Positions 1 through 16,221 of a stretch of DNA of 64,000 nucleotides are shown here, piece after piece (position 1 is the stretch's first letter; every line of letters begins with the position of its first letter). A program made the translations under genes and the position numbers. A model generated the notes under the pieces. It was given only the letters and a program-made list of their open reading frames with translations. It did not search any database and was not told where the DNA came from. The stretch covers positions 434,001 to 498,000 of the forward strand of contig NZ_JACBZP010000001.1 in the NCBI RefSeq assembly GCF_013409065.1, read 5' to 3'. Origin of the DNA: Spelaeicoccus albus. Lineage in GTDB: Bacteria > Actinomycetota > Actinomycetes > Actinomycetales > Brevibacteriaceae.

Positions 1-706
1 GGAGCGGCCGCCACCAGGCAGGACCATCACCCCAGGGGTCGAACCCGCTCTTCCGGTACGCCGAGCGCAACTTCGCCATCGCGCTATCTCGCTCAGGACC
101 GTACTCATAGGGGCCACCACCGCCCGGAAGCTGAGGCTCCGGCTCCAGCACGACCACGGTCTCCAAGGGCTCAAGTTGGAGCAGATCGATGAGATTGGCG
201 ATGAGTGCGCCGCTGAGCTTGTGACCGCGCCACTCTTCGACAAGCGTCATCCGATCGACGAGGATCGCAGAGGAGATCAGGTCGTCCCCGTGCGCCTCGA
301 CGATTTCCTTTACCGCCCAGCTGAGGGTCGTCGCGTCAGTACTGATCGAGTCCCCTGCATCCAACAGCCGCTCAGAGAACGCGTACCAGGTGACCCAGCC
401 GGAGATGGTGCCGATCTGCCTTGACTCGCCATCCGACTCAGCATCGTCGTAAACCGTAGCGACGAACGCGCGAAGTACGCCGTATTCGTCGGCGTCGTCC
501 CGGAAAATCCGTACGGAGATGCCGATGCTGTCGAGCTCAAGAGTTGGCTTCATGACCCCAAGCATGGCGCCCAGGTCAGACAACTCGAAGAGGCGGAATC
601 GGTCACGACGCGGATCCGTCTTGTAGGAGCATCGATACTCTCGAAGAGATAAGCTCGCCCTTTGATGCGACCGAAGTAAGTCGATGTCAGAGCCGCTGCT
701 GGCCAT
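1..706 (-). CDS. GNAT-like acetyltransferase, C-terminus cut by window edge
   Basis: The reading frame is open from the ATG at 704-706 to the left edge, giving about 235 residues without a stop. A GTG at 719-721 is an in-frame alternative start; neither has a clear Shine-Dalgarno sequence. The stretch RMTLVEEWRGHKLSGALIANL resembles the R/G-x-x-G/A acetyl-CoA loop and following helix of GNAT acetyltransferases, and KLRSAYRKSGFDPW near the edge matches the usual C-terminal strand of that fold. The substrate cannot be told. It sits at the outer end of the restriction island, divergent from a very small gene. The GNAT assignment is an inference from pattern only; existence of the gene is better supported than its function. 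Confidence 0.6.
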   Translation of the reverse strand, partial: MASSGSDIDLLRSHQRASLSLREYRCSYKTDPRRDRFRLFELSDLGAMLGVMKPTLELDSIGISVRIFRDDADEYGVLRAFVATVYDDAESDGESRQIGTISGWVTWYAFSERLLDAGDSISTDATTLSWAVKEIVEAHGDDLISSAILVDRMTLVEEWRGHKLSGALIANLIDLLQLEPLETVVVLEPEPQLPGGGGPYEYGPERDSAMAKLRSAYRKSGFDPWGDGPAWWRPL

Positions 707-790
707 GCCGCTTGAGGCCACGCAGAACAGTCGGCACGTGGACGCATCGGCGTCAGTGCGAGACAATGGGGCCGACGAATAGGAGCAGCC

Positions 791-937
791 ATGAGCGCGC
801 GCACCGGGGTCTCCCCGTCGGATATCCGACTTGCGCGTTCTCTCGTTCGTGCCGCCGCCAAGAGGGGGCGGCGCGAGAGCCCGAAGATCGAGACGATCGC
901 ACAGATGAAGACCCCAGAAGAGCGCACAACTTCCTGA
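791..937 (+). CDS. Small hypothetical protein (48 aa)
   Basis: ATG at 791 follows AGGAGC (781-786) at good spacing and opens a 48-residue basic protein starting MSARTGVSPSDIRLARSLV. No family is recognised. Just before its stop, another frame stays open to about 1050 (residues such as QLPDRVSADRDIAHD). The gene may therefore once have been longer and been shortened by a frameshift. It is divergent from the gene ending the window on the left. Evidence is the ribosome binding site and a plausible composition only. Confidence 0.35.
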   Translation: MSARTGVSPSDIRLARSLVRAAAKRGRRESPKIETIAQMKTPEERTTS

Positions 938-1294
938 TCGCGTCTCAGCAGACCGGGACATCGCGCACGATCAACACGGTCTGCCCACAGACTCGCCCCG
1001 TGCCCGTAACGTCCGCACCAGCGAATACTCGGCGTTATGGTGCGAGCTATAGACGCCAGACGCAGGCAGTTTTACCTCAGCCGCGCGTCAAAGAACGACG
1101 ATGACGCGCGCCATCGCCGACTCGGCACCGCGCTCGGCCGCCGCCATTGGACTCGCGGGCTGAATCGAATCCAGCACGCCTACGGCATCACACGCCTCTA
1201 CAACTACGGTCGAGAGCGTTGCCAGAACGTCTTGGCCGCTACGACCTCCGCTAGACCCACGTCTCGTTGGTGTCGACTACAGTACGGTGCTGTC
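938..1294. other. Stretch without a convincing gene
   Basis: No reading frame here has both a start signal and protein-like composition. An open frame without a start runs from about 921 to 1050 and may be the decayed tail of the small gene at 791. TACGGT at 1283-1288, ending 6 bp before the ATG at 1295, is a candidate -10 box for a leaderless transcript of the next gene. Confidence 0.4.
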
Positions 1295-2008
1295 ATGGGA
1301 GCCCCGATGTTCTATGAGAAGCCGGCCGGCCGCGGCAGCCTTCTGCACGTTGCTCCCGCGCCGGCGAGCTGGGACGCAGCAGGCTCACCGAGCCAGATCC
1401 GTTCGGCTGACTTCATCGACGACGTCCACGATCTCGCGGCTGAAAAGATGGCGGCGCTGCCGGATCCTCTCAGCCTGCTGCTCGACGTCGGTCTGCCGGA
1501 TGCCGTACCGCTTCTCGAGCGTCACGACCTGGACAACTACCTGTTCCCACTGGTCCCACAGCTTACGAAGCGCACCGGTCGACAGTTCGTCTCCGTATGG
1601 GCGACGAAGCGGCACGCCACCAGCTCGTCAGTTCTCGTCGGAACCGCCGTGCCGACAACGGATCCGGGAGGTACGTACTCATTCGACGTCGAGACTACCC
1701 CGGCTGCGGACACCACAGCGTACAAGGAACAGATCCGTGATCAGGTCTCGGCGGCGACTCCGTTGGGCGGTGCCGGGGTCGCGCTGCAGATCGCGTTCGT
1801 CGTTGGACCGCGCCGGTCGTGGCCCAACCTCTGGAAAGCGACCATCGACTCGTTGGGCCCCATCCTCGGCCGCGACGACGGTGCCGGCGAATGGAACATT
1901 CGCGATGGCCGCGTCACGCATCTGGGCCTACACTCCGCGGTCAATCCCGAGCAGGGGAACGAGGTCCGCATCACGCTCAGAGTATCGAGCGCCGCGGCGG
2001 GCGAATGA
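1295..2008 (+). CDS. Hypothetical protein, possible RusA-like fold
   Basis: The frame is open from about 1037, but the ATG at 1295 is the best start: it lies just after a TACGGT -10-like box and protein-like composition begins there (237 aa). The C-terminal third contains NLWKATIDSLGPILGRDD, then a segment ending RITLRV. That order (D/N-N-L-x-K-A-x-x-D-x-L, then DD, then a terminal strand) resembles RusA-type Holliday-junction resolvases. An earlier RHDLDNYLFPL echoes the same DxDN motif. It lies convergent with the GIY-YIG gene in the restriction island. The RusA link is a weak inference; otherwise the protein is unknown. Confidence 0.5.
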   Translation: MGAPMFYEKPAGRGSLLHVAPAPASWDAAGSPSQIRSADFIDDVHDLAAEKMAALPDPLSLLLDVGLPDAVPLLERHDLDNYLFPLVPQLTKRTGRQFVSVWATKRHATSSSVLVGTAVPTTDPGGTYSFDVETTPAADTTAYKEQIRDQVSAATPLGGAGVALQIAFVVGPRRSWPNLWKATIDSLGPILGRDDGAGEWNIRDGRVTHLGLHSAVNPEQGNEVRITLRVSSAAAGE

Positions 2009-2100
2009 CCCGGCCAAACCACGGCCCGACGCGACCTGAGCCTTGGCGATGAGCGAGACGTGACGGCCTGAATTCCGCACAGTCACCCCGCGAACCGAAC

Positions 2101-2574
2101 TCAGCCGATGTTCCATCCCGTCGACCGAGTACTCCAGAGATGGATGAGCCTATCCTCTTCATCGACGATGAGGTCACGGGGCAACTCGCGAAGCCAGTGC
2201 TGGACTGTGCGCCCGGCGTCGACCTGCTGTGCGATCAGCGCGTTGACGCGCTTGCGCGTCACGCCGGCGTGACGGGGCTTTCCGTAGCGCTGCCCGCCTC
2301 GCGCTCCCCCGCTGTGCGGCAGGTGCCCCTTCGTGACCATCCACAGATGAGTCGTGAGACCGACGTAGGCAACATGAACGACGTCGCCGTCGCCGATCGT
2401 GAAAAGGTAGACCCCCGCAGAGTCGGGCACCTGCCCGAGCGTGGCCCACTCGATGCCAGTGCCGCCGGGCCATTCAACATGCTGTCCGAAGTCGAGGTCG
2501 TGCGGTACGAACCCGAGGGCGATGAGGTCTTCGGGCTCGACCAGGGTTCCAGGCAAGGAAGTAGATTCCGCCAT
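2101..2574 (-). CDS. GIY-YIG-like endonuclease domain protein
   Basis: 157 aa from the ATG at 2572-2574; an in-frame GTG at 2602-2604 would add ten residues. The order AGVYLFTI, then AYVGLTTHLW, then a basic stretch with RKRVNAL, then EED and a terminal TGWNIG follows the GIY-YIG plan: the two strands with Tyr and Tyr-Val-Gly, a helix Arg, the metal-binding Glu and a late Asn. The two strand motifs are degenerate (GVY and YVG). GIY-YIG nucleases occur as restriction enzymes, homing enzymes and repair nickases. Placement downstream of vsr suggests a DNA-processing role in the same island, but this is inference. Confidence 0.6.
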   Translation of the reverse strand: MAESTSLPGTLVEPEDLIALGFVPHDLDFGQHVEWPGGTGIEWATLGQVPDSAGVYLFTIGDGDVVHVAYVGLTTHLWMVTKGHLPHSGGARGGQRYGKPRHAGVTRKRVNALIAQQVDAGRTVQHWLRELPRDLIVDEEDRLIHLWSTRSTGWNIG

Positions 2575-2709
2575 GTCGTCTAGTGTCCCACTTTCGGCAC
2601 GCACGCTGTCCGCGACGATCGACAGATAACCATCGCACGATAAATGGCCGCTGACCGACGAACACCTCGAACGGCCTGGCTCCGCTGATCATGCAAGCGA
2701 GTCAGGACA

Positions 2710-3222
2710 TCACGACTGGCCTCGCATCTCCTTAACGGTCTTGGCAACGAGGTCAGCTGCCAAGACAGGCGACTCGTGCTCCCACACGCGCAAGACTGTC
2801 CACCCCGCATCCGCGAGCCGCGCGTCCGTGTCCGCGTCCCGCTCCCGGTTCCGCGCGATCTTGCCCGACCAATAGCCGGGGTTCGATTTGGTCTCCCGCC
2901 GACTGTGCTCAGGACAGCCGTGCCAGAAGCAGCCGTCTACGAAAACGGCGACCTTCGCAGGTCCGAACACGATGTCTGCTCTGCGCCGCCACCCGCGCAG
3001 CGGGGAGCGGTCTACGCGGTAGCGCAGGCCCATCGAATGAAGTATGCGGCGCAATGCCATCTCTGGGGCCGTGTCGCGCGTGCGCTGCAGTTGCATCCGG
3101 CTGCGAACGCCTGGTGTCGACGCGTACGAGCCAGACAGGGACGTGCCGCGCCGGGTGCGCCCCCCGGACACTGGCCCTCCCGTCACGGACTCATTCTCCC
3201 GCGAGCCTCCCACAAACGCCAT
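2710..3222 (-). CDS. vsr: Very short patch repair endonuclease Vsr
   Basis: Vsr nicks next to T:G mismatches that arise when 5-methylcytosine made by a partner methyltransferase deaminates. Diagnostic segments are RTRDTAPEMALRRILHSMGL near the start of the domain, RADIVFGPAKVAVFVDGCFW and HGCPEH (metal and zinc ligands), and GWTVLRVWEH near the end. The residue after VWE is His where E. coli Vsr has a zinc-binding Cys. The chosen ATG at 3220-3222 gives 170 aa; the frame stays open to 3261, and a later start nearer the domain is possible. It is divergent from the HNH gene and about 0.8 kb from the C5 methyltransferase, the expected partner. Confidence 0.9.
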   Translation of the reverse strand: MAFVGGSRENESVTGGPVSGGRTRRGTSLSGSYASTPGVRSRMQLQRTRDTAPEMALRRILHSMGLRYRVDRSPLRGWRRRADIVFGPAKVAVFVDGCFWHGCPEHSRRETKSNPGYWSGKIARNRERDADTDARLADAGWTVLRVWEHESPVLAADLVAKTVKEMRGQS

Positions 3223-3245
3223 GCTAGCTGCGAGAGCGTTACAGG

Positions 3246-3998
3246 ATGGACGAAACTTCACTAAACAAGCGGCGGAACCCGGCGTGGGCCCGCGAAGAGA
3301 TCATCCTGGTGGCAGAGGCGGTAGCTGCCAACAGCTGGCACGAGCTCAGAACCGGCGATGCCGAAGCACGAGAACTGTCGAAATTGCTGCAGAAACTCGA
3401 CATACATCCAGTCGACGCACGCCCTCACGACTTCCGGAGCCCCGGTAGCGTCTCACGGAAGACGTCGGACATTATGACTGCTCACTCGGCATACTCAGGC
3501 GTGCGGACTAAGGGCGGCGCGTTGACGCGCGAGGTCGTCCAAGAATTCGAGTCCGATCCGAGCGGCATGGTCGCCCAGGCGGAGTACGTGCGCGAGCGTG
3601 CGACTGAGGGTGGGGCCCTTCCGTCGTCAGGTCGCGTCGTCGATCCCGATCTAGGCGTCCCAGCGTCTGAAGGGGGCGTCCGCGAGCGAGCACACCTAGC
3701 CAGGGAGCGGGATAAGCGAATCAGGAAGGCGAAGATAAACGCAGTCCGTGCCGCAGGCGGGGCGATCGAATGCGAAGTGTGCGGGTTCAACTTCGGGGCC
3801 GCCTACGGCAACCGGGGGCATGGGTATATCGAAGTCCATCACCGCGTGCCGCTGCACGTGTCGGGCCCGACCGAGACTTCGCTTGCCGACCTCGCACTGC
3901 TGTGTTCCAACTGCCATCGGATGATTCACCGCGCACATCCCTGGCTGACGGTCGAGCAACTCAGCGAGATTGCCTCCGAGGGCCAGGAGACTAGCTGA
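3246..3998 (+). CDS. HNH endonuclease of the restriction locus
   Basis: 250 aa. The C-terminus is an HNH domain with CEVC (about 176-179), EVHH (196-199) and CSNCH (220-224), giving zinc Cys pairs and the catalytic His. The N-terminus (NPAWAREEIILVAEAV, then FRSPGSVSRK) matches the N-terminal module common in HNH restriction proteins, which begins NPxW and later has a 'FRNxxGVxxK'-like segment. It runs convergent with the methyltransferase gene and overlaps its 3' end by 8 bp; its start is only 23 bp from the vsr start on the other strand. It could be a second, perhaps modification-dependent, restriction nuclease; target unknown. Confidence 0.85.
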   Translation: MDETSLNKRRNPAWAREEIILVAEAVAANSWHELRTGDAEARELSKLLQKLDIHPVDARPHDFRSPGSVSRKTSDIMTAHSAYSGVRTKGGALTREVVQEFESDPSGMVAQAEYVRERATEGGALPSSGRVVDPDLGVPASEGGVRERAHLARERDKRIRKAKINAVRAAGGAIECEVCGFNFGAAYGNRGHGYIEVHHRVPLHVSGPTETSLADLALLCSNCHRMIHRAHPWLTVEQLSEIASEGQETS

Positions 3999-5304
3999 TC
4001 TTCGAGCGCAGCTTGTCCGTGGCGAACGCCGCGTGGCGGGCATGGTCTTCCTGGCCCCGGAACGCACGCCACTCACCCAGCCGGTAAGTGGGCACTTTGC
4101 CACGGCGGCGCACCTCAATCTCGAAGTCCTGTCTGAGAAACTCGATCCGGTGCTCGATATCGCTGTCGGAGAGGCCGCCACCGAGCGCCTTGTGCAGGCC
4201 AGCGATCGAGATGAATCCGCCATGCTCCCGCAACGCCCGGTATACCTCGTCACGGTACTTGCTGTCCCCGCCGTGGTCGCCTGCCCGGCGGCCCTCTTTG
4301 CGGAGCGCCGTGGCAATCGCGAGCCCAACCGCGCGCGCCACCGGCGGAGGAAACGCGTTGCCGATCTGGCGGTAGGTTGCCGTCTTGTGGCCTTTGCGGT
4401 CGCCGAAGTCCCATTCGTAACCGGGGCCCGCCCACCCCTGGATTCGCGCTACCATCTCGTTCGTCAGCTTCGGGGCGAGGCCGACGGGCGCATCAGGGCC
4501 AGGAGCCGCGTCTGCGATGCCCAATCCGTCAACACCTATTGACCGCCACTCACGCTTCGCGCGGGTCGGACCCAGATCGGGGCCACCGTGCTTCTTGGAG
4601 CCGCCGACGATGGTCGGGGCCACTCGGTCGGCGCGCTTCGACCAGGTCTCCGCACCCTTCCAGCCGTTCGCGGCCATCAGGTCGTAGAGCGCAGCACCCA
4701 CGGTCTGCACGGCTGGAGTTGGCTCGGGCCAGGCGAAGTACGGAGCGAACTCTTCGCGGAGAGCGACGAGAATAAAACGGGGCCGCAGCTGCGGAACGCC
4801 GAAGTCCTTGGCCTCAAGCAGCCGCCAGTCGGCGCGGTATCCCAGCTCGGCGAACCGATCGAGCACTGCCTGCCGGTACCCGGCGAAGCGCGGCATCGAC
4901 AAGCCACGAACGTTCTCGAGCAATACAGCATCGGGCTGCATCTGAGCAGCCGCCTCTACTGCCCACGCGAACAGATCCCGCTCGTCGGACGATCCCAACT
5001 GCTTACCGGCGATCGAGAACGGCGGGCATGGCACGCCGCCCGCGAGCAGCGAGACTCCCTTGTATTCCGCGGGCTGCCATACTGATTCGTCTGCGACGTC
5101 GCCGACGGCGACCACCGGCTCCGGCTGGCCCTCGTCAGAAGCCAGGCGGGCCAGGTTTCGCTGTAGAGTCTCTGCCGCGTCCCGATCCAGCTCAACAGCG
5201 AGCGTGTGCCTGAAGCCCGCCAGGTGGAGGCCGAGGCTCTGGCCCCCCGCCCCGGCGCAGATCTCAACCGCTGTCAGCTCAGTAGTACTCGTGGTCCCGT
5301 CCAT
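3991..5304 (-). CDS. DNA (cytosine-5-)-methyltransferase
   Basis: 437 aa. It transfers methyl from S-adenosylmethionine to C5 of cytosine. Motif I is CAGAGGQSLGL (about 16-26), motif IV is GVPCPPFS with catalytic Cys93, motif VI is ENVRG (130-134), motif VIII RPRF, and motif X QIGNAFPPPVA. After motif X there is an extra 85-residue tail containing YRDEVYRALREHGGFISIAG and KVPTYRLGEW that reads like a winged-helix module. It lies 50 bp downstream of the NaeI-like endonuclease on the same strand, so R precedes M in one operon. By association it should protect the NaeI-like site, which in NaeI is GCCGGC. Confidence 0.95.
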   Translation of the reverse strand: MDGTTSTTELTAVEICAGAGGQSLGLHLAGFRHTLAVELDRDAAETLQRNLARLASDEGQPEPVVAVGDVADESVWQPAEYKGVSLLAGGVPCPPFSIAGKQLGSSDERDLFAWAVEAAAQMQPDAVLLENVRGLSMPRFAGYRQAVLDRFAELGYRADWRLLEAKDFGVPQLRPRFILVALREEFAPYFAWPEPTPAVQTVGAALYDLMAANGWKGAETWSKRADRVAPTIVGGSKKHGGPDLGPTRAKREWRSIGVDGLGIADAAPGPDAPVGLAPKLTNEMVARIQGWAGPGYEWDFGDRKGHKTATYRQIGNAFPPPVARAVGLAIATALRKEGRRAGDHGGDSKYRDEVYRALREHGGFISIAGLHKALGGGLSDSDIEHRIEFLRQDFEIEVRRRGKVPTYRLGEWRAFRGQEDHARHAAFATDKLRSKIS

Positions 5305-5354
5305 GATGATTCATTCTGACAGATGCCACCGACACGGCCGGGACTCGCGCTGAT

Positions 5355-6287
5355 TTATGCGCGGCTTGGCCGGTACCAGAGGGGGTCAAACGCCTCGCGG
5401 CCGTTCGAATCCACCGCCCTCAGGGCCAGTCCCGACGGTCCGCGTGCGACGCGGCCGGGCCAGTCTGCCGGTGCGGGAGCCACGTATGCGGCGACGTATT
5501 CCGTCCGGAGCGGGACAGGGAGTCCGAGCTCACGCGCAGCCTCCCGCTGCCAGTCATAGGCTCCGCCGAGGATCACGATGCCTTCAGACGCCAGTGGGTC
5601 CCGCGATCCGCTCTGGCCGCCCCGGACGCGCCGGGTGACATCGAGCTGCGCAGCGACGGTCGCTACGGATGCCCGGCCGACGATCTTCCCTGCCGTGCGC
5701 CGGAACAGCTCGGATACACGCGCGGTGCCGCCACCGGCCGCGAATACTGCGGCCACGTCTTCCTCGCGCATGTGCAGCAGAGTGTTCGGTGGCAGCTCAG
5801 CGTCCTTCCGCAGCCAGGCGATCATTGACCTTCCGGCTGCGGAGAGCGTGCGCTTTGCGTCTCTGTTCCGTCCTCCATTGAGCAGGTCTTCCGACGCCCG
5901 GACTACGCCGACTGAGAACTGTGACCTCTTGTCGCTGGCGGTGACAACCATGCAGAGCTCGCCAATGGCCTCTGGCGGGAGCATCCAGCCGCCCGAACTC
6001 TGACTATACTTCGCGTCGACTTCGTGGCCCGCGATGCAATAGTCCAGCTTCATTCCGTCGGCGTACTCGAACTCGCGCTGGAGGTTGATCTCCACGAGCG
6101 TCCCGAAGTGCGTCTTCTCGGTCTTGAACAGCTGGTCCCACCGGTACCTCCGTGTCCGGACGCCGTCGTAGAGCTGGTCGAAGGTGTCACGCAGGACCTG
6201 TCCCGTTATCATCGCGTCAGGATCAAGGCGCTCCATCTCGCGCATAACGCCGTCGCGAGCGGGGTCATCAGGGAGGCCAAGAGTCAC
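5355..6287 (-). CDS. NaeI-type type IIE restriction endonuclease
   Basis: 310 aa from a GTG at 6285-6287 with no strong ribosome binding site; the start agrees with the family N-terminus. The arrangement RDTFDQLYDG, then KTEKTHFGTLVEINL, then a D-x8-DAK core matches NaeI. E66, D82, D91 and K93 sit at the same spacings as NaeI E70, D86, D95 and K97. The LYDG at 39-42 corresponds to the NaeI Leu43 motif that resembles a DNA ligase active site lacking its lysine. NaeI must bind two copies of its site to cleave. A C-terminal DNA-binding domain (about 165-310) follows, with NELFRR-type and VIATV-type segments. Specificity is inferred only. Confidence 0.9.
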   Translation of the reverse strand: MTLGLPDDPARDGVMREMERLDPDAMITGQVLRDTFDQLYDGVRTRRYRWDQLFKTEKTHFGTLVEINLQREFEYADGMKLDYCIAGHEVDAKYSQSSGGWMLPPEAIGELCMVVTASDKRSQFSVGVVRASEDLLNGGRNRDAKRTLSAAGRSMIAWLRKDAELPPNTLLHMREEDVAAVFAAGGGTARVSELFRRTAGKIVGRASVATVAAQLDVTRRVRGGQSGSRDPLASEGIVILGGAYDWQREAARELGLPVPLRTEYVAAYVAPAPADWPGRVARGPSGLALRAVDSNGREAFDPLWYRPSRA

Positions 6288-6536
6288 ACGACAGAGGTTA
6301 CCAAGGCTCCGCGTATCTCACCTCCTTGCACCACACATATGTTCGCGCGCGGAGTCTCTGACGTGCAGTCCAGCGTGCCCCAGAGGTCCATTTCGGTTTC
6401 CGCACTCGACAGCGAGCCGGTCGAATTTACCCGCGAATTATCAAGTCGACTCGTCTTGCCGACGGCGAGGAACTGGCATATGTCTCCGACATCGACCACG
6501 CCGCCGCGCTATCCGTCGGCCGCCCACGGAAGACCA

Positions 6537-7136
6537 TCAATGCGTCCGATTGCGCCCGACGAGTCCGCCGCCGACGACTGACGTGATCCGCGTCGTCGTA
6601 CCGGCCCACTTGCTGCTGCTGCCGCGTGCGCGGCCCCCACGACGACCAGAACGCGCGCGGCTCACACGTCCCGTGCGCTGAGCCTGCACCTTCCCACCAG
6701 CCTGCAGTGCTGCTGCCGCGGCAGCGTGAACCTCGTCAGCCAACTTGAGCACGTTTTGCCGGCCGTTCGCACTCTCGGGCAGCGCGTTCACTTTCCGCCA
6801 TATCTCACGGCTCCGACGTCGCAGTTGCTTGATCTCGGGAATCGCCGCGCCGTGATCTATCAACATGGTCAGCGATTTTGATAGGACGGCCAACTCACTC
6901 TCGGCTCGTCTGACCGCTTTGCGCTTCCCTCCTTTTTGCGCAGGTCGTTGTTTCACCTTGGGGGCTCGGACAGCTGGCTCCGGCGCGGGATTGCGCACAG
7001 GTTTACGGTACTCAACGTGTCGAATCGGTGCAGCGTTCGCGGGCCTCGGCCGCGGCCCCGGCTTTCGTTTCGCTCGTGGAGCTAGTTCTGCGAGCTTCTC
7101 GCGAGTCGCCTCATCGAGCGCATCTTTGAGCTTCAT
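6537..7136 (-). CDS. Hypothetical very basic protein
   Basis: 199 aa. GAGGGGA lies about 9 bp upstream of the ATG at 7134-7136, a good ribosome binding site. The protein opens with a short acidic helix (MKLKDALDEATREKLAEL), continues with a Pro/Arg/Lys-rich disordered stretch, then a predicted helical segment around SELAVLSKSLTMLIDHGAAI to EVHAAAAAAL, and ends in an Arg/Ser/Gly-rich tail. The charge suggests nucleic acid binding. No family is recognised. It lies in the island upstream of the NaeI-like gene and in the same direction. Confidence 0.55.
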   Translation of the reverse strand: MKLKDALDEATREKLAELAPRAKRKPGPRPRPANAAPIRHVEYRKPVRNPAPEPAVRAPKVKQRPAQKGGKRKAVRRAESELAVLSKSLTMLIDHGAAIPEIKQLRRRSREIWRKVNALPESANGRQNVLKLADEVHAAAAAALQAGGKVQAQRTGRVSRARSGRRGGRARGSSSKWAGTTTRITSVVGGGLVGRNRTH

Positions 7137-7322
7137 TGCTCACGTTCCCCTCGTATCGGACATCGTAAAAGTTGTATATCAGGATGCCGTCTCGCAAATC
7201 TAAAGTGGGTGTGCTGCGACTCCAAGTCACCAGGAATGGCAGCTTTCGCAGTGAATCGCTCAGTGCGATCACGCCCACTCAAAGCGGCACCTTTCTGACC
7301 CAATCAATCCACCCAATTCGCA

Positions 7323-8096
7323 GTGTCAGTAGTGACGCATACGCTAAAGGTCCACAAGGCGTCAACGGGGCAATTGTCTAGTAGCTCACAAACCGTTCGA
7401 TCCGACGTTAGCGCGGTAGCTGCCGCGGCGAAGGCGTTGGCCCCTCAGCCCAGACACGCTAGATGGGGGCACTTGAGCCTGTGCGTTCTGGACGCCGTTT
7501 ACTCGATCAATGCCAAATACGATTCCGTCGTCGTCCGGGTCGTCCACCGTTACGCGGACTGGGCAGAGCTTTCTTCCGTGCTTTTGACGGGAGCCGCCTT
7601 ATCCGACGCGATCAGTCCGCGCGACGACGAACAAACACTCACCAGTTTCCTTGATTCGATCGATTCCCTGGCAGACGAGGCTTTCGCAGGTGAGATATTG
7701 CGCAACAAGCAGCGGACGTCGACGCGGAGCCGGGTGTTGAAGGCTGCCGCAGTTCGGCAAACCGCGGGTATCTAGCACGACCACGGGAAAGAGACGCTGA
7801 CGGAAGTCAGCGAACTGCTGTCGGACGTCAGCCGTGTAAAGAGAGTTGAAGAAGCACTCGCCAAGGTTCCCGGCCACGGCATCGACGCCGTCCGCACCGG
7901 CTACTTGTGGATGAATGCCGGCAACGATTCCCACGTGAAGCCTGATCGGCACATCCTGTCGCTGCTGCAAGAGACTCTTGGCCGCGAGGTCACTGTCACC
8001 GAAGCACGCACGTTGCTCGCCGAAGCTGCATCCTCCATAGGAGTGACGCCTTGGATGGCTGATCACGCTATCTGGGAGAGGAAAGCCCGAAAATAG
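7323..8096 (+). pseudogene. Helix-hairpin-helix (glycosylase-like) protein interrupted by TAG
   Basis: One frame runs from the GTG at 7323 (alternative GTG at 7332) to a TAG at 8094-8096, broken only by TAG at 7773-7775. Both sides look like one protein. Before the break are RWGHLSLCVLDAVYSI and RTSTRSRVLKAAAVRQ; after it are VEEALAKVPGHGIDAV and GNDSHVKPDRHILSLL. The VPGHG turn followed by VKPDRHI resembles HhH-GPD-type DNA repair proteins. No frameshift is needed, only one nonsense codon. It is either a recently inactivated gene, a readthrough gene or a sequencing error. No clear ribosome binding site is seen upstream. Confidence 0.7.
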
Positions 8097-8350
8097 CCCG
8101 AATACCGATGTGTCCGGCCGCACCCAACGCAGCGCATGTAGCTGCCCGGAAGCCGAGGTATACAACCCTTGCACTTTTCGGCTCCCGTTCGTACGAACCG
8201 GTGCTTAGCTTTCGCAGGACTAATAGGAGACCCCGCATTTACCCCGCAGATTCAACGACAGCTACTAGCAGAGAAAAGTATTCTGTTGCGCCTCTGACCA
8301 GGCAGGACCGAGGGTTATGGCAGTCCGCAGAAACCCCCGATAGCGCGAAA

Positions 8351-8395
8351 CTCTTACTCGAAAGGTCACCGGATCGACGCCGGTCGGAGCCACCA
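8351..8395 (+). other. 3' half of a tRNA-Lys(CUU)-like gene, likely att site
   Basis: CTCTTAC reads as an anticodon loop with anticodon CTT. It is followed by a five-base stem strand, an AGGTC variable loop, a T-arm whose stem ACCGG (8368-8372) pairs perfectly with CCGGT (8380-8384), the acceptor strand CGGAGCC (8385-8391) and ACCA (8392-8395). The sequence before 8351 does not pair with the anticodon or acceptor strand, so the 5' half is missing. The T-loop begins A instead of T. This is the usual product of integration into a tRNA anticodon loop and marks the right boundary of the island. Confidence 0.65.
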
Positions 8396-8400
8396 CATCG

Positions 8401-8427
8401 GGCCCCCGGTACGCCGGGGGCCTTTTT
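8401..8427 (+). terminator. Rho-independent terminator after the tRNA-like end
   Basis: A nine-base stem, GGCCCCCGG (8401-8409) with CCGGGGGCC (8414-8422), loop TACG, is followed by TTTTT (8423-8427). It works for plus-strand transcripts and directly follows the CCA end, so it is probably the original terminator of the tRNA gene. The stop codon of the TetR gene overlaps its last base. Confidence 0.85.
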
Positions 8428-9041
8428 CATTCGCCGCCGGCACCGCCGCCGGTCGTCGAGGCCACCCCGCGTAAGCCGTGCTCGAGCAGGTCGAAGATGG
8501 CCTCGAGCGCCGCCGACGGTTCCGGGTCGTCACTGACGATTTGCGGCACTTCCAACACGTACCGCGCAACCGCTCGGGCGGTGGGATCGCCCGGGCAGCG
8601 CCCGAGCTCGGCAGCTATCGCCGCGGCAAGCGGGGCCTCGCAGCGGATCCACAACGTGCGCGTGTAGTCCCGAAGGGCCGGAGTGTTCATGATCAATTCG
8701 GTGCGCCGTCGAAATTCCGGGGACGGGTTGGTCACGAACGGCCCGCGCCCGCCCATGAATTCGCTCAGTGCCGACATGACCGACTGCCCGGCCCGGCGTT
8801 CCCGGACGGCGGCGAGCAGACCCTCTCGCCGTTCCACGCCGTCGTCGAACATCAACGCCTCTTTGCCATCGGGCACGTGAGAAAACACGGTCGGCACCGA
8901 GATGTCCACGGCGTCGGCAATCTCTTTCACGCTCACCCGGTCATATCCCTTTTCCAGGAAGAGCCGTAGCGCCGCATCGGCCAGAGCCCGCCGGGTCTTG
9001 GCCTTTTTACGTTCCCGACGTCCGAGTGGTTCCGCAGTCAT
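8427..9041 (-). CDS. TetR family transcriptional regulator
   Basis: 204 aa. The N-terminal helix-turn-helix is clear (TRRALADAALRLFLEKGYDR, then VSVKEIADAVDISVPTVFSH), with a helical ligand-binding C-terminus. It is divergent from a flavin monooxygenase gene with 112 bp between the starts. That gap is AT-rich (about 9061-9120), so the protein probably represses the monooxygenase and itself, with a substrate of the enzyme as inducer. This is inferred from gene arrangement; no clear operator palindrome was found. It is the first gene to the right of the island boundary. Confidence 0.9.
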   Translation of the reverse strand: MTAEPLGRRERKKAKTRRALADAALRLFLEKGYDRVSVKEIADAVDISVPTVFSHVPDGKEALMFDDGVERREGLLAAVRERRAGQSVMSALSEFMGGRGPFVTNPSPEFRRRTELIMNTPALRDYTRTLWIRCEAPLAAAIAAELGRCPGDPTARAVARYVLEVPQIVSDDPEPSAALEAIFDLLEHGLRGVASTTGGGAGGE

Positions 9042-13260: not shown

Positions 13261-14358
13261 TCAGTACAGCAGTGCTGCGCCGCCGTCGACGCCTTTGGCG
13301 CCGTGCACGTACCCGGGCGCGCCCGAATGCCCGCCGTCATCGGCAATCACTTCACCGAGAGTCCAGGCCGCGAGCGAGCGATCTGCCAGCGCGGCGATCG
13401 TCGCATCGGCTCTGGCGGCGTCGACGATCAGCACCATGCCAACGCCGAGGTTCCACGTGCGCTCACGGTCGGCGACCGGCACCGAGCCGAGGTCGCCCAG
13501 CACCGTGAATACCGGCGGAACCCGCCACGACGCACGACGCATCAGCGCAAGCGTGCCGGTCGGCAGGATCCGTGCCACGTTTGCCGACAGTCCCCCGCCG
13601 GTCACGTGCGAAATGGCACGGACGGCGTCCCCGGCGTCGCCGACCACACTGAGCAGATCGGCCGAATAGACGCGGGTCGGTTCGAGCAGCTCCTCGCCGA
13701 GCGTTCGCCCGAACTCGTCGACGTGACGGTCAAGCGCCCATCCCGCATCCGCCACGATGCGCCGAGCCAGCGAATAGCCGTTGGAGTGCATGCCGGAGGA
13801 CTCGATGCCAATGACGACGTCCCCGGCGCGAACCCGCTCCGGCCCGAGAAGCCCGTCGGCCTCGACCACTCCGGTTGCGGCGCCGGCCACGTCATAGTCA
13901 TCCGGCCCCAGCAGCCCGGGGTGCTCGGCCGTTTCGCCGCCGACAAGTGCGACGTTCGCGGCGCTGCACGCCTCGGCGATTCCACGCACGATCGCCGCGA
14001 TGCGCTCGGGCACAACATGCCCGCAGGCGATGTAGTCGGTCATGACAAGCGGTTTGGCGCCGCTGACGACTATGTCGTCCACGACCATCCCGACAAGGTC
14101 GAACCCGATCGTGTCGTGAATGTCCAGGGCCTGCGCTATTGCGACCTTGGTTCCGACTCCATCGGTCGACGATGCAAGCAACGGCCGGGCGTACGCCTTG
14201 AGTTCCGACACGTCGAACAGCCCGGCGAACCCTCCGACACCGCCGACGACTTCTCGTCCGTGCGTGGCAGCGACCGCCGATTTCATCAGCTCGACGGCTT
14301 TGTCGCCGGCTTCGACGTCGACTCCGGCCGACGCATAAGTCGTGTGTTCGGGGTTCAG
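13261..14358 (-). CDS. purM: Phosphoribosylformylglycinamidine cyclo-ligase
   Basis: Makes aminoimidazole ribotide from FGAM with ATP (step 5 of purine synthesis). Family segments: YASAGVDVEAGDKAVELMK near the N-terminus, STDGVGTKVAIA, GMVVDDIVVSGAKPLVMTDY, GETAEHPG, SSGMHSNGYSL, and ISHVTGGGL. The frame is open upstream into purF, but no ATG, GTG or TTG lies near the expected start. The likely start is a CTG at 14356-14358 that overlaps the purF TGA (CTGA) with GGAG 8 bp upstream, giving about 365 aa. A start at ATG 14431-14433 would add 25 residues. It is the last gene of the purF-purM operon. Confidence 0.93.
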   Translation of the reverse strand: MNPEHTTYASAGVDVEAGDKAVELMKSAVAATHGREVVGGVGGFAGLFDVSELKAYARPLLASSTDGVGTKVAIAQALDIHDTIGFDLVGMVVDDIVVSGAKPLVMTDYIACGHVVPERIAAIVRGIAEACSAANVALVGGETAEHPGLLGPDDYDVAGAATGVVEADGLLGPERVRAGDVVIGIESSGMHSNGYSLARRIVADAGWALDRHVDEFGRTLGEELLEPTRVYSADLLSVVGDAGDAVRAISHVTGGGLSANVARILPTGTLALMRRASWRVPPVFTVLGDLGSVPVADRERTWNLGVGMVLIVDAARADATIAALADRSLAAWTLGEVIADDGGHSGAPGYVHGAKGVDGGAALLY

Positions 14359-15818
14359 AACGGCAACTCCAGGAGATTCTTGCCAAGGCGGTCCTCGGCG
14401 GGAAGGTCGATGGGGTATTCGCCGGTGAAACATGCCGTGCACAGTTGCCGGCGCTCTTGGCGAGTGGATTCGATCATTCCGTCGATCGAAATATAGCCAA
14501 GCGTGTCGGCGCCGAGCGACGCGCAAATATCGTCGTTTTCCAAGCCGTTGGCGATCAGCTCGGCGCGCGAAGCGAAATCGATGCCGTAAAAGCAGGGCCA
14601 TTTGATCGGCGGGGACGAGATGCGCACATGAATTTCGGCGGCACCGGCTTCGCGAAGCATCCGGACGACGGCCCGTTGGGTATTGCCGCGCACTATCGAA
14701 TCGTCCACCACGACGAGTCGCTTGCCCGCGATCATCTCCTTGAGCGGATTGAGCTTGAGCCGGATGCCGAGTTGTCGGATCGTTTGGCTGGGCTGGATGA
14801 ATGTACGCCCGACGTAGGCGTTCTTCACCAGGCCCTGACCAAAGGGGATCCCCGATTCTTCGGCGTATCCGACGGCGGCCGGCGTGCCGGATTCGGGCGT
14901 GGGGATCACCAGATCGGCGTCCACGGGGTGTTCGCGCGCCAGATGCCGGCCCATTTCGACGCGCGCGCTGTGCACGACCTCACCGTTGATGGTGGTGTCC
15001 GGCCTGGCCAGGTAAACGTATTCGAAGACGCAGCCGGCACGCTTCTTCGGCGCAAACTGGTACGTACGCAGACCGTCTTCGTCGATGGCGATCATTTCGC
15101 CGGGTTCGACCTCGCGGACCATGGACGCGCCGACGATGTCCAACGCCGCCGATTCGCTGGCGACCACCCAGCCCCGTTCGAGCCGGCCCAGTACCAGCGG
15201 GCGCACACCTTGCGGATCGCGGGCCGCGTACAGAGTGTTCTCGTCCATGAACACCAGCGAGTACGCGCCGCGCAGCTTCGGGAACAAATCGAGCGCGCTT
15301 TGCGTCAGCGTCGTATCGGCGTCACCGGCCAATAACGCCGTGACGAGCGAGGTGTCGTTGGTGGAAATGGGACCGGCCGGGCCGGTGCCGGCGGCCTGCC
15401 GCTCGGCGACCATATCGCGCAGGTCCGCAGTGTTCGTCAAATTGCCGTTATGGCCCAGCGCGACGGTGCCGTCGTACGTCGGTCCCAACGTCGGCTGCGC
15501 GTTTTCCCAGGTCGAACCGCCCGTCGTCGAATACCGGCAGTGCCCAACGGCGATGTGCCCTTGCAGCGTTTCCAGCGATGCTTCGTCGAACACCTGGGAA
15601 ACCAGGCCCATATCGCGGAACACGAGGATTTGTCGTCCGTTCGAGGCGGCGATCCCTGCGGATTCCTGCCCACGGTGCTGCAGCGCGTACAGCCCGAAAT
15701 AGGCGAGTTTTGCCACGTCCTCGCCCGGGGCCCAGACGCCGAAGACGCCGCATGCGTCCTGCGGGCCTTTGTCCTGAGGGTTGAGTTCGTGGGTTAGTCG
15801 ACCATCTGCTCTCGCCAC
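14355..15818 (-). CDS. purF: Amidophosphoribosyltransferase
   Basis: First committed purine enzyme: PRPP plus glutamine to phosphoribosylamine. GTG start at 15816-15818 gives 487 aa. The N-terminal propeptide ends before CGVFGVWAPGEDVAKLAYFG, whose Cys is the glutaminase nucleophile after cleavage. The Ntn domain continues with YALQHRGQESAGI. The PRPP loop is VVVDDSIVRGNTQR. Cysteines in AGCVFEYV, WPCFYG and LCTACFTGEYP match the 4Fe-4S ligands of the Bacillus-type enzyme. The upstream membrane protein gene ends 4 bp away, and purM overlaps the stop, so the three are probably co-transcribed. Confidence 0.97.
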   Translation of the reverse strand: MARADGRLTHELNPQDKGPQDACGVFGVWAPGEDVAKLAYFGLYALQHRGQESAGIAASNGRQILVFRDMGLVSQVFDEASLETLQGHIAVGHCRYSTTGGSTWENAQPTLGPTYDGTVALGHNGNLTNTADLRDMVAERQAAGTGPAGPISTNDTSLVTALLAGDADTTLTQSALDLFPKLRGAYSLVFMDENTLYAARDPQGVRPLVLGRLERGWVVASESAALDIVGASMVREVEPGEMIAIDEDGLRTYQFAPKKRAGCVFEYVYLARPDTTINGEVVHSARVEMGRHLAREHPVDADLVIPTPESGTPAAVGYAEESGIPFGQGLVKNAYVGRTFIQPSQTIRQLGIRLKLNPLKEMIAGKRLVVVDDSIVRGNTQRAVVRMLREAGAAEIHVRISSPPIKWPCFYGIDFASRAELIANGLENDDICASLGADTLGYISIDGMIESTRQERRQLCTACFTGEYPIDLPAEDRLGKNLLELPF

Positions 15819-15822
15819 GCGT

Positions 15823-16221
15823 TCAGTGTCCCATATTCGTGTGGCCGTCGTCACCTTGCCGCCGGACGGCGTCCGGCTCGGTCTCGTACGCGGGCTCCGC
15901 CTCGCGAGTGGCGTCCGGCTCGCGAGTGGCGTCCGGCTCGGATACGGGTTCGAAGCTGCCGCGGACATCGACGTTCTTGATGCGCCGGCGCAGCAGCCAG
16001 TCCGACAGCAGCGCCGCCAGGGCTCCCAGCAAAATGCCGCCGATGATGAAGATCGCGGCGAAATAGGAGAACGATGTGAAGAGCGAATAGTCGGCGGCAC
16101 CGGCTCCGGCCGTGACGACGATCAGCGCCGCCAAGATGCCCGCCAGTCCGCCCATGGTGAGGAACACGCCGAACCGCGGCGCCCGCCGCACCCGCACCGT
16201 CACCGGTCGCCGGCCGCTCAT
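15823..16221 (-). CDS. Small membrane protein upstream of purF
   Basis: 132 aa with two hydrophobic segments (about 18-40 and 50-72), a short Arg-rich loop and a C-terminal acidic, repetitive tail. The tail contains ATREPDATRE, encoded by two tandem 18-bp units at 15901-15936. Its ATG overlaps the aldehyde dehydrogenase stop (ATGA) and it ends 4 bp before purF. No function is recognised. Confidence 0.75.
   Translation of the reverse strand: MSGRRPVTVRVRRAPRFGVFLTMGGLAGILAALIVVTAGAGAADYSLFTSFSYFAAIFIIGGILLGALAALLSDWLLRRRIKNVDVRGSFEPVSEPDATREPDATREAEPAYETEPDAVRRQGDDGHTNMGH

Follow-up and report, generated by a model that had tools for sequence, protein, structure and literature searches.

A displaced 3′ part of tRNA-Phe(GAA) at the right end of a 44.6-kb restriction island in Spelaeicoccus albus

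An intact T-arm, an acceptor 3′ strand, a CCA end and a hairpin terminator with a T run, without a matching 5′ half, stand at about positions 8358-8427 of the 64,000-nucleotide stretch of the Spelaeicoccus albus genome that was analysed here (the window; G000:C1:434001-498000, in a genome of a single 4.03-Mb contig). These parts had been recognized in the first-pass annotation, where they were taken for the 3′ half of a tRNA-Lys(CUU) gene at the boundary of a restriction island, and all of them were recovered. The question raised by the locus is which tRNA gene the fragment comes from, and what it bounds. No tRNA was called in the window by ARAGORN, all 45 Rfam tRNA matches of the genome lie elsewhere, and when the fragment region was folded as RNA, only the terminator stood out (z -0.60). 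The features of the region are collected in table 1.

The fragment is a genuine displaced tRNA 3′ part, and its source is tRNA-Phe(GAA) rather than tRNA-Lys(CUU). The segment, which runs from TCGAAAGG to GGAGCCACCA and is followed by the terminator hairpin and T run, is an exact direct repeat (38/38 bases, same orientation) of tRNA-Phe(GAA) positions 39-76. The intact gene (genome 397754-397829) belongs to a Glu-Asp-Phe cluster 44.6 kb left of the fragment, outside the window; among the 45 Rfam matches, all typed with ARAGORN, there was one tRNA-Phe(GAA), one Lys(CTT) and one Lys(TTT). A genome-wide search with window 8320-8440 returned the query itself, genome 397792-397849 and a weaker match at 1,406,427-1,406,484; since the full 38 bases were found at just one other place, chance was excluded. 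The terminator that follows the intact tRNA-Phe today differs from the one that follows the fragment. The A at T-loop position 54, previously read as a sign that the copy no longer needs to function, was ruled out as a mark of decay: it is the native base of tRNA-Phe in S. albus and in the family, matched in each of 30 fetched family loci, S. albus included, with a search pattern that itself required A54, and, being shared with the intact gene, it is uninformative on whether function has been lost.

Table 1. Features of the window at and around the displaced tRNA fragment.
Feature	Position in window	Strand	Basis
Integrated element, its right-hand 8.4 kb	1..8395	.	bounded by two core copies
Vsr-type mismatch endonuclease, island cargo	2710..3261	-	Pfam PF03852, E 7.5e-19
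HNH endonuclease, island cargo	3246..3998	+	Pfam PF01844, E 1.1e-08
C5-cytosine DNA methyltransferase, island cargo	3991..5304	-	Pfam PF00145, E 4.4e-50; PADLOC MTase_II, E 1e-230
NaeI-type restriction endonuclease, island cargo	5355..6287	-	Pfam PF09126, E 8.3e-100
Island gene nearest to attR, function unknown, broken by an in-frame stop	7323..8096	+	translation
CCCCGCATTTACCCCGCA, probable arm-type integrase-binding repeat (putative function), 127 bases left of core	8231..8248	+	paired with attL copy
TGACCAGGCAGGACCGA, conserved motif, possible accessory site (putative function), located between arm repeat and core	8295..8311	+	conserved among right ends
CTCTTAC, element side of core, misread as Lys anticodon loop	8351..8357	+	heptamer adjoins core in related islands
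attR core, displaced tRNA-Phe(GAA) 3′ part, positions 39-76 including CCA	8358..8395	+	38/38 match to genome 397792-397829
Terminator after fragment, probably the original tRNA-Phe terminator	8400..8427 (approximate)	+	10-bp G+C hairpin, then T run
TetR-family regulator, first gene outside the island	8427..9041	-	Pfam PF00440, E 7.5e-11
purM-like (13261-14601) and purF-like (14355-16100) genes, marking the chromosomal surroundings of tRNA-Phe	13261..16100	-	Pfam AIRS/AIRS_C, GATase_6/7 and Pribosyltran

With a probability that we put at about 0.96, an integrative element of 44.6 kb has entered the only tRNA-Phe(GAA) gene of the host, and the fragment is its attR. The element corresponds to genome 397792-442395, of which only the last 8.4 kb reach into the window, with its core copies 44,566 bp apart. 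Inside this interval, at a distance of 1.6 kb from the intact tRNA-Phe and to its right, lies the gene of a 383-aa tyrosine integrase (genome 399,432-400,583, minus strand; Pfam Phage_integrase, E 3.4e-19), in whose translation R, HxxR, H and Y positions are visible that we take to be the tyrosine-integrase catalytic set. An intact tRNA-Lys(CUU) and an integrase had been predicted left of base 1; the integrase was found there, and the intact tRNA beside it is Phe(GAA), not Lys. The wider proposal, that a tyrosine-integrase element left the displaced tRNA part behind and that it forms the right end of a restriction island, held, the island carrying a NaeI-type restriction-modification system. 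G+C content was 62.5% in the island and 65.2% and 65.4% in its flanks.

Besides the restriction genes, the element contains a primase-like gene, a family A DNA polymerase gene and an internal serine recombinase gene (genome 422,830-423,609). PADLOC, applied to 10 island proteins, reported Vsr, MTase_II and REase_II and a weak mad8 match for a 967-aa ATPase; this protein (genome 402,549-405,452; locus label L004:9550-12453) matches AAA/STAND-like NTPases and is possibly an island defence gene. Two subsets of the mechanical open reading frame list were scanned further: no relaxase or TraB/FtsK-type translocase was found among 41 island frames compared with Pfam, and no capsid, portal, terminase or tail gene among 30 compared with PHROGs, whose matches were confined to replication, recombination and families of unknown function. 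Relatives of the integrase in phage and plasmid records all had less than 60% identity, a comparison that did not identify the element type. The element may be a satellite, the remnant of an ICE or something of another kind.

A composite origin of the 44.6 kb, in which other mobile DNA later entered a tRNA-Phe element, is possible but in our view unlikely; the restriction genes might then have arrived independently of the integrase. Such a history would be consistent with the internal serine recombinase, which is common to the island of Brevibacterium sandarakinum, otherwise mostly different in cargo, and with the broken gene nearest to attR, a homologue of which without that stop was found at 1.398 Mb of S. 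albus (75.6% over 643 bp); against it, neither an internal core copy nor a further tyrosine integrase was found between the element ends.

The right flank was compared with a relative of another genus in the same family (G058), in which the purM-like and purF-like genes (68% and 82% identity; names given from our reading of the Pfam domains) and an aldehyde dehydrogenase gene are syntenic with the window from 11,481 onward. This synteny supports the view that the right flank would be the old tRNA-Phe neighbourhood, in a comparison between genera that does not amount to a base-exact empty site. G058 had no integrase match, and no fragment stood among the matches listed for its tRNA-Phe. Synteny resumes 9.7 kb beyond tRNA-Phe in G058, the interval being occupied by unrelated esterase, MFS, ROK, glycosidase and LysE genes, versus 3.1 kb beyond the fragment in S. 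albus; with these intervals in between, the first genes of the right flank are not proven native neighbours. In the stretches fetched from three Brevibacterium genomes (G025, G028 and G047), no such synteny was seen except for a 35% aldehyde dehydrogenase match in G025. The TetR gene was tried as a conserved neighbour of tRNA-Phe and rejected, as it proved useless as a landmark: some TetR match was present in 60/60 genomes, but the best one outside S. albus (39% identity over most of its length) was in G058, far from tRNA-Phe.

Both ends of the element carry a further repeat. The paired CCCCGCA repeat CCCCGCATNNACCCCGCA occurs twice in 4.03 Mb, at genome 397,874 and 442,231, once per island end, starting 45 bases past the end of the attL core and 127 bases before the start of the attR core; its reversed control had 0 matches in the genome. 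In relatives, a loosened form of the repeat recurred beside tRNA-Phe in 11 of 14 tRNA copies; among 13 related fragments, 8 had it at a spacing of exactly -127. Under the pattern used it was absent in the other five fragments, two of which (L195 and L210) extend into the anticodon loop and are probably the work of other integrases. Judged by what is known of other tyrosine integrases, the paired repeats are probably arm-type integrase sites. The motif TGACCAGGCAGGACCGA between repeat and core was conserved at the right ends of the window, Brevibacterium sp. UCMA 11754, S. albus 1.406 Mb and B. sandarakinum (G028).

As the element is read here, the integrase would recombine attP with attB in the 3′ part of the tRNA that the two sites have in common, the T-arm being the likeliest place. 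The 3′ part and terminator of the host gene would thereby be exchanged for the copies carried by the element, so that tRNA-Phe stays whole, and the original 3′ part and terminator would be pushed to the far end, where they would now form window 8358-8427. The most likely crossover region is ACCGG-ATCGACG-CCGGT, a 7-base loop between inverted 5-base stems in the T-arm; the exact point is unreadable within the 38 bp because the core copies are identical. A crossover in the anticodon loop, as first proposed, is unsupported, since the shared block begins 3′ of that loop, at position 39; the loop is not part of the repeat, which sets the integrase apart from the anticodon-loop class. The same element might still have crossed over in the tRNA-Phe anticodon loop with its attR side changed since, and other tRNA-Phe fragments in relatives do include part of the anticodon arm, so that integrases of that kind use the same gene; this is nevertheless very improbable, as the heptamer that stands in place of the loop, CTCTTAC, is conserved in the islands of several genera and is therefore original and not a late change.

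Of the 13 related fragments, 6 have the heptamer CTCTTAC immediately left of the core, and another has GTCTTAC there; CTCTTAC also stands beside the core in B. sandarakinum (G028, the fragment L200 of the 13). Because it adjoins the core in related islands, it is element DNA, and the CTT that had been taken for an anticodon sits within it, outside the repeat. That the fragment is a tRNA-Lys(CUU) 3′ half, left by an integrase recombining in the anticodon loop, has next to no probability: a tRNA-Lys(CTT) gene exists at genome 2,045,692 and CTCTTA resembles the start of its anticodon loop, but it shares with the window only this hexamer and scattered bases (best 19/36 aligned bases in ungapped shifts, against 38/38 for Phe), CTCTTAC is common to related islands beside tRNA-Phe, and the exact Phe match refutes a Lys origin.

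Relatives of the integrase were found at 25 loci in a scan of genome contigs, 15 with tRNA-Phe(GAA), 8 with tRNA-Arg and 2 without a tRNA. In the genomes of all 15 tRNA-Phe loci, searched for the core with 2 mismatches allowed, at least two copies were present in 12, one in 2 and none in 1, and the spacing of copies on one contig ranged from 3.0 kb (UCMA 11754, whose integrase frame is split and whose core is only partly present) to 109.6 kb. A full-length tRNA-Phe match of at least 95% was obtained in 58/60 family genomes, S. albus included. Among the listed matches of the 59 family relatives, integrase identity above 40% over most of the length was confined to B. sandarakinum (G028) and UCMA 11754 (G047), in both of which the gene adjoins tRNA-Phe.

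The island of B. sandarakinum has the same integrase (83% identical) at tRNA-Phe, a fragment and a conserved right arm. Its core copies in strain DSM 22082 lie at 1,075,085 and 1,145,313, giving 70.2 kb versus 44.6 kb in S. albus, and most of the cargo was unshared by tblastn; common to both, apart from the integrase and right arm, are two proteins near the integrase (a neighbour, 47%, and a small protein, 66%) and the serine recombinase (73%). In UCMA 11754 (L022:8016-8053) the right core stops after about 26 bases and joins sequence like that found on the chromosome next to other tRNA-Phe genes of Brevibacterium, which suggests a deletion through attR.

Fragments of tRNA-Phe were present in at least six family relatives (G004, G020, G026, G028, G029 and G031). 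In five of these, G028 being the sixth, they begin earlier, within the anticodon arm, and thus form another class; this second class, to which L195 and L210 also belong, probably derives from other integrases that use the tRNA-Phe gene. Fragments of the two classes (L203 and L210) lie 13.7 kb apart in Cryobacterium fucosi (G060, contig C79), possibly as tandem islands. In Bifidobacterium leontopitheci (L033), an integrase of 39% identity stands beside the fragment end, not the tRNA, of an 8.6-kb interval.

The weaker match in S. albus itself, at 1,406,427 (L040:9928-10082), is 73% like the right end of the island over 158 bp. A degenerate arm repeat, the motif between repeat and core and a portion of the core itself are present, and the stretch looks like a decayed right end. 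It directly precedes hsdM, hsdS and hsdR, a type I restriction-modification operon; at a distance of 8 kb, close to an Mrr-type gene, is the homologue of the last island gene at 1.398 Mb (L040:1680-2322). A broader reading, which we regard as improbable, is that one integrase with an attP of fixed geometry (arm repeat at -127, CTCTTAC beside the core) provides a common end module, with restriction genes tending to accumulate beside its right arm, for tRNA-Phe islands across Micrococcales whose cargo is largely unrelated. If this were true, the decayed end at 1.406 Mb would point to movement of both right ends and restriction genes outside tRNA-Phe as well.

The element resembles systems already described. 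As set out in the Islander catalogue of tDNA-integrated genomic islands (PMC4383910), such islands have an intact tDNA at one end, a displaced 3′ tDNA fragment at the other and a tyrosine integrase inside, in the correct orientation, with a length within 2-200 kb; the same holds here, with no difference in principle from that account, the element falling in the T-loop or T/acceptor-junction class and not in the anticodon class. Shared with actinomycete integrative and conjugative elements (AICEs), in the features given for them in PMC3218068, are the tRNA 3′ end as site, the tyrosine integrase and the size range; among the proteins scanned here there was no AICE-type replication initiator or translocase, and a primase-like protein and a family A DNA polymerase were found instead. 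The Brevibacterium lanthipeptide island BreLI is likewise an integrative island in Brevibacterium and differs, in the portions of the sources used, by its target, a ribonucleotide reductase gene, and its 12-bp repeat (PMC6579920, PMC5719810). A limited literature search, which is not proof of absence, returned no publication on Brevibacterium tRNA-Phe integrase islands, on actinobacterial integrative and conjugative elements with a tRNA-Phe attB, or on tRNA-Phe integrases in Microbacterium.

The island is an ordinary mobile element of an already well-known kind. A plausible misreading is corrected, in that the Lys-like loop is element DNA, and the core together with CTCTTAC and an arm repeat at -127 provides a search signature for related tRNA-Phe islands. 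With the true ends of the island fixed at 44.6 kb, the NaeI restriction genes of S. albus can be assigned to a mobile element and not to the core genome.
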